The notes beneath the pieces are model-generated. The model was given only the letters and a program-made list of their open reading frames with translations, was not told where the DNA came from and did not search any database. From positions 1 through 64,000 of the forward strand of contig NZ_CAUJAJ010000009.1 in the NCBI RefSeq assembly GCF_962747995.1: a stretch of DNA of 64,000 nucleotides, given 5' to 3'. This stretch comes from Neisseria viridiae (GTDB taxonomy: Bacteria > Pseudomonadota > Gammaproteobacteria > Burkholderiales > Neisseriaceae). Positions 46,718-47,646 of the stretch are shown here, in pieces; within the stretch, counting starts at the first letter, position 1; the number at the start of each line of letters is the position of its first letter. A program made the translations under genes and the position numbers.

Positions 46718-46729
46718 GTGTTCAGAAAA

Positions 46730-46756
46730 AGGTCGTCTGAAAGTTTCAGACGACCT
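46730..46756 (+). terminator. Inverted pair of a variant uptake sequence (AGGTCGTCTGAA)
   Basis: AGGTCGTCTGAA at 46730-46741 and its complement at 46745-46756 have a 3-base loop, 12 bases after fabZ. Both arms carry GTCGTCTGAA instead of GCCGTCTGAA. This is the dialect described for N. mucosa-type commensals, so the segment probably came from such a species. Confidence 0.75.
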
Positions 46757-46769
46757 AATAAAAAGAAAA

Positions 46770-46849
46770 CCCACCGGTTTAGGTTTATTCAAACCCAGGG
46801 ACACGGTGGGGATTAGTTTCATCTGACTATATCAAATATAGTTTGAAAC
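46770..46849. repeat. Two adjacent palindromes upstream of the Abi-like gene
   Basis: CCCACCG (46770-46776) pairs with CGGTGGG (46804-46810) around an inner GGTTT/AAACC hairpin (46782-46795). A second interrupted palindrome, GTTTCA...ACTATAT-CAA-ATATAGT...TGAAAC, spans 46816-46849. They end 32 bases before the Abi-like start codon and could be an operator, an attenuator or an insertion end. Confidence 0.6.
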
Positions 46850-46881
46850 GTCAATTTAAAAATAAAGAATCAGGGGTTAGC

Positions 46882-47604
46882 GTGAATTATAAGGAATGCT
46901 GTAGTATTTTTTCTGATTTCAGAATGGAACGGTATAAAAATGCCGTTGGGGAAGACAAAGCAGCTGAATTGTATTTATTGAATTTATCTTTATCAAGAGA
47001 ACTTTTTCATGTTGTTTCAATATTTGAGATTGTTTTAAGAAACAAAATTGACATTTGCCTTCAGCAGGCGTTTAAAGACGGAAACTGGTTATATGATAGC
47101 ATACAGCCACAAACGAATCCTGCATTGAAATATCAAGGTTGCTTTTTAAGAAATGGTACGAAAGAATCTGCTGAATTAATCAAGGTTGCATTATCTAAAA
47201 TACAAAATAATAGCGGAGGAAAGTTTGACCACAACCAATTGGTTGCAGGACTAGGATTCGGTTTTTGGCGGTATCTGTTTGCAGGAGGGAAAGATGCCCA
47301 ATTTGATGCTACAGGGAAAGTATTGATGAAAGTTTTTCCCAAAAAGCCCAAATCTACACCAAGTGTGCAATATAACCAAAAATGGATTTTTCGAGAACTT
47401 TCCAATATTAACAATTTCCGTAATCGTTTGGCACATCACGAGCCGATTTGTTTTAAAGGTGCAATAAAAGATACCGGCTACGCTAGAAATATTCACCAAT
47501 CTATTTTTGAACTGCTTAATTACATGGATGTAGATACTGCTTCAGTATTTAGCCATTTTGGCGATCAAGTGATTGCGGTCTGCGATGAAATCGACAAACT
47601 GTGA
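46882..47604 (+). CDS. Abi-like (AbiD/AbiF, Abi_2-type) protein with HEPN-type motif
   Basis: The 240-residue product starts at GTG 46882 with AGGGG six bases upstream; a TTG at 46843 is less likely. It is AT-rich and Lys/Asn/Phe-rich, unlike fabZ and lpxA. The N-terminal part resembles Abi_2 proteins (LSLSRELFHVVSIFEIVLRN, all-helical). Near residue 190 it has NNFRNRLAHHEPI, an R-N-x-x-x-H arrangement typical of HEPN ribonucleases. Proteins of this group are phage-abortive-infection or toxin-like factors. The gene lies inside the lpxD-fabZ-lpxA run with the same orientation. lpxA starts 42 bases after its stop, so lpxA may now depend on read-through from this gene. No separate antitoxin gene is visible. 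Confidence 0.75.
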   Translation: MNYKECCSIFSDFRMERYKNAVGEDKAAELYLLNLSLSRELFHVVSIFEIVLRNKIDICLQQAFKDGNWLYDSIQPQTNPALKYQGCFLRNGTKESAELIKVALSKIQNNSGGKFDHNQLVAGLGFGFWRYLFAGGKDAQFDATGKVLMKVFPKKPKSTPSVQYNQKWIFRELSNINNFRNRLAHHEPICFKGAIKDTGYARNIHQSIFELLNYMDVDTASVFSHFGDQVIAVCDEIDKL

Positions 47605-47646
47605 TTTTCTATTATTTGTCTTAACAAGCAGCGGAGTATTAAAAAC

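Follow-up and report, generated by a model that had tools for sequence, protein, structure and literature searches.

The AT-rich gene that separates fabZ from lpxA among the lipid A genes of this Neisseria is in our judgment likely to be one half of a cassette made up of an AbiF-like HEPN RNase and a trans-acting RNA antitoxin that is encoded opposite to the toxin. The window (the whole stretch of 64,000 nucleotides that was analysed) had been described before from its sequence alone. This preliminary description treated the gene, here called abi, as a lone insert and missed the divergent structured RNA (46757-46819, minus strand), even though it lies inside the interval then delimited. The features are collected in Table 1.

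Table 1. Features of the fabZ-lpxA interval and its two neighbours, in window coordinates.
Feature	Position	Strand	Evidence
fabZ, left neighbour	46268..46717	+	ORF list; tblastn across the genus
DNA-uptake palindrome AGGTCGTCTGAAA...TTTCAGACGACCT	46730..46756	.	perfect 13-nt inverted repeat
Predicted antitoxin RNA, ~63 nt, hairpin and T-rich tail, start near 46819	46757..46819	-	R1, covariation, G.U; ends predicted
RNA promoter TTGACG (46854-46849), 17 nt, TATAGT (46831-46826), TG ahead of TATAGT	46826..46854	-	scan, conservation
abi, Abi_2/AbiF-like HEPN protein, 240 aa, GTG start	46882..47604	+	ORF list, Pfam, PADLOC, structure model
HEPN motif R180-N-R-L-A-H185 (RNRLAH)	47419..47436	+	alignment, coding sequence
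lpxA, right neighbour	47647..48423	+	ORF list

The abi gene and its product

The interval 46718-47646 follows directly on the end of fabZ at 46717 and is laid out as uptake palindrome, AT-rich leader, abi and the 42 bases that lead up to lpxA. The earlier account of an AT-rich ORF of 240 residues with an RNxxxH motif, foreign in composition and lying in the same orientation only 42 bases ahead of lpxA, holds: the ORF (46882-47604) has 35.8% GC against 52.1% for the window, the motif is coded at 47419-47436, and the stop codon ends at 47604, with the ATG of lpxA at 47647. Since dN/dS is 0.16-0.29 (ten pairwise comparisons among five close Neisseria copies) and R180, N181, A184, H185, H186, E187 and P188 are invariant, abi is more than a chance ORF. 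The invariant residues come from an alignment of 55 rows, a subset of the relatives' proteins from which L093, L107, L112 and L115 were excluded for their in-frame stops.

The assignment to Abi_2 and the HEPN proteins was also borne out. Pfam Abi_2 (PF07751) scores 26.5 bits, barely above its cut-off of 25.6 (E 9.6e-6), and the PADLOC profiles PD-T4-5 (E 2e-16) and AbiD (E 2e-7) both match; the best of them, PD-T4-5, is covered over positions 4-216 of a 309-position profile. PHROGs gave two weak matches to the protein (6e-5 and 2.4e-4) and NCBIfam none. The Abi2, AbiF and AbiD families are placed in the HEPN superfamily (PMC3710099), and PD-T4-5 of Escherichia coli is described as a toxin-antitoxin-like abortive infection system distantly related to AbiF/D, no RNA partner being mentioned in the accessible part of that report (PMC9519451).

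An AlphaFold2 monomer model built from the 55 rows (pLDDT 94.7, pTM 0.90) predicts the HEPN fold that had been proposed. Foldseek ranks 8VZ6, the structure of PbAbiF with its ncRNA, first among PDB entries, with probability 1.00, TM 0.65 and an E value of 9.5e-3 that is not below 1e-3. VIA-align places the two HEPN folds on each other over nearly the whole chain, with Z 12.6 (203 residues, 3.1 A; next row 5.7), a value to be read with the caveat that helical bundles with Z under ~13 may reflect a common arrangement. At the level of sequence the resemblance to PbAbiF is weak (aligned residues 15% identical; E 0.88), phmmer found no match between the two, and the chains differ in length (~300 residues in PbAbiF, 240 here). 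Both the R-polar-xxx-H motif and, in the model, the helical fold of the HEPN superfamily are present, and so are two marks of an AbiF with an RNA antitoxin, the PbAbiF fold (again in the model) and a structured RNA beside the toxin gene.

An RNA antitoxin has been reported for PbAbiF (PMC12737573). In the AbiF of Clostridioides difficile, a predicted homodimer, changing R202 and H207 abolishes toxicity, and the small RNA RCd22 neutralises the toxin through direct binding (PMC12373285). By analogy, abi is probably the gene for a self-poisoning enzyme.

A structured RNA on the opposite strand

In the RNA ahead of abi a stem of nine pairs is followed by an unpaired CCC facing a single A and by a second stem of four pairs; the structure computed by RNAalifold was the same as the one drawn by hand beforehand. 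R1, the model of this RNA, matches the window on the minus strand with a core at 46815-46766 (42.1 bits, E 1e-12). The underlying alignment has 65 distinct rows, derived from 60 relative loci and four Neisseria RNAs after identical RNAs were collapsed (78 to 65), L056 was added manually and L118 removed as a spurious pattern match. Across the 13 pairs of these closest relatives, which are partly kin to one another, 97.2% of 833 cells are paired, against 22-45% once the partners are slid. Cells in which both sides have changed number 117 against 31.7 in shuffled alignments (none of 500 shuffles was as high), and the covariation score is 0.433 against 0.178. Double changes occur in eight pairs, a count that 70 of 500 shuffles also reach.

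The strand is told by the G.U pairs. Among the 520 cells formed by the first eight pairs of the 65 RNAs, 454 are Watson-Crick and 47 are G.U; read on the reverse strand, the same eight pairs hold no G.U cell (0/520). The RNA is therefore made from the strand opposite abi. The same element precedes the gene in four Bacteroidota plasmids. Our first idea, a sense-strand abiF RNA, was dropped after these plasmid elements and the G.U asymmetry were seen. No Rfam 15 family matched the RNA in the window or at 18 loci, and the abiF RNA motif (RF03085) was likewise without a match in the window (E<=10), at seven loci (E<=5) and at a further 11 (E<=1).

Transcription signals

The promoter of the RNA is conserved in all seven Neisseria sequences compared: four have TTGACG-17-TATAGT, two have TACAGT as the second box, and G001, in which the spacer differs apart from the promoter, has TTGACG-17-GATAAT. 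Bare promoter matches in the stretch (3, against 2.5 in shuffles) are not significant. A terminator scan of the same stretch returned one candidate (0.9 expected), the palindrome at 46730-46756; the hairpin of the RNA itself was not picked up. As the palindrome resembles a terminator on the minus strand alone, nothing visible would stop transcription from running on from fabZ into abi.

Of 86 distinct stretches, 76 have the Bacteroidota promoter box TAnnTTTG no more than 40 nt ahead of the RNA and on its strand (4.6 expected from shuffling; 8 with the box reversed), and in 64 of the 76 it is 6-7 nt from the R1 start. The T-rich tail follows the RNA in 66 of 69. As the RNA has promoter signals of its own, the cassette carries its own control. 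A box directed at the gene lies beyond the RNA in 24 of 68 Bacteroidota loci (2.8 expected), and toxin mRNAs started there would therefore cross the RNA in antisense.

A second R1 match, across the abi start (46845-46889, minus), is weak at 13.6 bits. Pairing of the RNA with the ribosome-binding site of abi was considered and dropped, since that site varies among carriers (CAGGGG, CAGGTG, CAAGGG, CAGGTA). In one Neisseria copy (L003, from G020) a Correia-like element has inserted between abi and the RNA promoter, which stays intact. Elsewhere in the window (12626-13033, minus) two tRNA genes are repeated as a pair, 225 bp apart and with identical scores.

The RNA keeps company with the toxin gene

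We have examined 84 loci, namely the best 80 of at least 528 confirmed bacterial relatives (mostly Bacteroidota, with a few Acidobacteria) and the four Bacteroidota plasmids. A text pattern located the element upstream of the gene in 72 of the 84, one of them spurious. R1 matches 83 of the 84 at E<1e-3, many of these loci having built R1 or being equal to one of its rows; among the loci independent of its building it found 11 of 12, the one missed (L085) starting at a contig end. In 73 of the 83 the RNA is upstream on the opposite strand (1.6 kb off in one case), and in the others it is downstream, on the opposite strand in six and on the same strand in four. All three relatives from another Neisseriaceae genus have an R1 match, and at E<1e-10 the 46 Neisseria genomes yielded only the six fabZ-lpxA cassettes. 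The RNA thus accompanies this toxin subfamily steadily and across bacterial phyla. The company is not total, because L007 (in G018), a relative 40% identical to abi, has no R1 match nearby or anywhere else in its genome. Within the stretches fetched, R1 is also absent at nine relatives of 25-34% identity (L008, L009, L158, L159 and L162-L166).

In a sample of 398 Pseudomonadota genomes R1 matched the genome of the window itself and G259. The latter match (E 2.7e-4) was rejected as chance, being inside a long open frame in a stretch with no Abi gene. The same verdict was given to weak matches in G008, G009, G032 and a second one in G020 (E 0.13-0.65), whose stretches have no Abi gene either. 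Viral contigs gave 36 pattern matches and no confirmed relative, and phage records three weak matches, all from Zymomonas.

Several loci deserve mention on their own account. At L063, L077, L112, L100 and L114 paired copies of R1 lie close together, which may be compared with the two abiF motifs of RCd22. L093, L107 and L112 have one in-frame stop in each toxin gene and an intact adjoining RNA. The fabZ-lpxA gap of G018 (L028) lacks abi and contains, as judged by eye, some 20 nt resembling one end of the RNA gene; R1 gives this remnant no score, even with filters off. Upstream of Abi genes on Pseudomonas plasmids, L162 (465 nt) and L164 (214 nt) have in common a structured stretch that differs from the R1 RNA, has no R1 match and shows a run of T after the stem on the opposite strand; it is perhaps another divergent antitoxin RNA.

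These observations bear on two other ways of reading the element. According to one, abi would be a stand-alone HEPN defence gene and the hairpin a mere terminator or DNA binding site. A hairpin with a T-tail could indeed end a transcript and some Abi_2 relatives (L007) do without R1, but the unpaired CCC and CAA are conserved, the G.U asymmetry points to an RNA, a promoter lies just upstream of the element, and its copies shift around the gene yet stay near it, all of which makes this reading improbable. According to the other, the element would act in sense, as a leader or attenuator of the abi mRNA. RCd22 acts in this way before abiF in C. difficile (PMC12373285), the element precedes the gene in the 73 of 83 loci counted above, and the plus strand also folds well (z -3.85 for 46757-46890, with -3.60 for 46757-46822 on the minus strand). 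Against this stand the 47 G.U cells to none, the promoter box and T-tail on the minus strand and the ten loci in which the element is downstream in either orientation, and we regard a sense leader as very unlikely.

Distribution and movement in Neisseria

Of 46 Neisseria genomes, 43 gave a fabZ match (tblastn). The gap between fabZ and lpxA contains abi in six of them (G000, which is the genome of the window, G005, G015, G019, G020 and G001, the last with a protein 65% identical to that of the window) and is 57-280 nt long without abi in 36, G032 being counted in neither class. The comparison of gaps suggested earlier thus shows abi to be an insertion in a minority of genomes and disposes of the prospect that all Neisseria might have it. 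Relatives of 33-40% identity occur in G018, G012 and G008 at other sites. The gene and its RNA are also found in two N. gonorrhoeae records that are chromosomes judging by their size (2.17 Mb), NZ_CP119142.1 and NZ_CP119140.1, both of them filed as plasmids. G015 is identical to the first N. gonorrhoeae record across fabZ and the aligned part of abi (lpxA 99.6%), its abi being two codons longer, and the window is 96.4% identical to N. gonorrhoeae across 3,230 bases.

Between G000 and G019 the DNA identity is 97.4% in abi, against 90.6% in fabZ, 92.1% in lpxA and 92.5% in the part of lpxD compared. The palindrome adjoining abi is AGGTCGTCTGAA, of which the genome of the window has 75 copies, along with 1760 of ATGCCGTCTGAA; the reverse holds for G019 (2854 and 40), G007 (2487 and 35) and G024 (2995 and 36). 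The two sequences represent DNA-uptake dialects, the mucosa dialect among them. The empty sites of G007, G024 and G027 share the palindrome and, by eye, match the filled sites up to its end, the agreement resuming just ahead of the lpxA start. Because of the contrast in identity between abi and its flanks, the dialect counts and the agreement of the empty sites, we infer that the cassette was most likely acquired from a G019-type Neisseria, through transformation and homologous exchange. These comparisons indicate that it has moved between Neisseria species. In G001 (L006/L034) lpxA is only 58% identical in protein to that of the window, against 83% for fabZ, and the native lpxA beside the cassette may have given way to a foreign one. 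We found no description of this Neisseria abi gene in the literature consulted, including the accessible parts of PMC7643975, PMC8895040 and PMC11798529, and do not claim its absence from print.

The location itself might suggest that the lipid A operon has co-opted the cassette as a regulator of lpxA, since it has the same orientation, ends 42 nt ahead of lpxA and has stayed at one and the same place in six species, G001 with its 65% identical copy among them. The 36 of 43 genomes without it, and the relatives with their RNA at unrelated sites, plasmids included, leave this idea little credit. The preliminary description supposed that expression of abi could be tied to envelope synthesis and that losing the gene might affect lpxA by polarity. 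Foreign composition, patchy presence and the in-frame stops of some Bacteroidota relatives would fit a neutral passenger of a recombined stretch that no longer works, a reading made most doubtful by the frame open in all six Neisseria copies and the two N. gonorrhoeae records, the low dN/dS, and the intact RNA and promoter.

A proposed mode of action

For the toxin and divergent RNA that we favour, toxicity, RNA binding, target and trigger are modelled on PbAbiF and RCd22. The abi protein would act as a dimer whose shared active site, including R180 and H185, cuts RNA. From its own promoter the RNA of ~63 nt would be transcribed away from abi, end at the hairpin and T-tail beside the uptake palindrome, bind the abi protein in trans and block the RNase. 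Should the RNA supply fall, as it might once a phage has stopped transcription in the host, the freed toxin would cut cellular RNA; growth would stop, resulting in abortive infection, and hence phage defence, or in addiction to the cassette. Read-through from the lipid A genes may be a further source of abi transcripts, which would pass through the RNA gene in antisense.

This last point allows a bolder and rather unlikely version, with features of both type I and type III toxin-antitoxin systems, in which the RNA neutralises the protein in trans and is yet antisense to the toxin mRNA leader. Transcription of the toxin would then both make toxin and silence or titrate the antitoxin, the lipid A genes of Neisseria would supply the opposing transcription, and the balance would read out the envelope pathway. 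That the lipid A site lets the cassette sense envelope synthesis is a guess.

Comparison with known systems

The cassette resembles type III systems (ToxIN and its kin) in that an RNase toxin would be held by an RNA antitoxin. Their classical layout is not found in the window: the RNA is on the opposite strand, with no tandem array and no co-transcription, and is present in one copy besides the weak 13.6-bit match, in contrast to the repeats of type III. The toxin is here a HEPN protein, unlike ToxN, which to our knowledge is not one.

The likeness to AbiF and RCd22 of C. difficile is closer, and includes an Abi_2/AbiF HEPN protein, the R and H of the motif and a small structured RNA adjoining the gene (PMC12373285). 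RCd22, however, runs in the same direction as its gene, with which it is co-transcribed, and has two motifs and, ahead of the gene, a terminator (PMC12373285), whereas the Neisseria RNA has a single motif, the opposite strand, a promoter of its own and no match to RF03085. In PbAbiF (8VZ6; Zilberzwige-Tal et al.) the ncRNA is bound to the protein (PMC12737573, PMC12373285); here the RNA lies beside the gene and would be bound likewise.

The pairing of an AbiF toxin and an RNA antitoxin is a known kind of system. What appears new, as far as we have checked, is an RNA unmatched in Rfam 15, on the strand opposite the toxin, with a promoter of its own and located now before, now after the gene, together with a Neisseria cassette inside an essential gene run. 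According to PMC12804078, AbiF covariance models were made by Zilberzwige-Tal et al., who may already have described the RNA with PbAbiF. Relatives in this part of Abi_2 may commonly encode the RNA divergently.

Significance

AbiF-type HEPN toxins with RNA antitoxins have been reported as ancestors of CRISPR-Cas13 (PMC12737573, PMC12373285). A bounded subfamily with a compact, covarying and seemingly independently transcribed RNA offers material for the question of how an antitoxin RNA might have become a guide, and R1 provides a means of annotating Abi genes for which no partner is at present recorded. For Neisseria, N. gonorrhoeae included, the finding places an AbiF-like system within an essential gene run, where it has apparently moved with the DNA-uptake signals of Neisseria itself.
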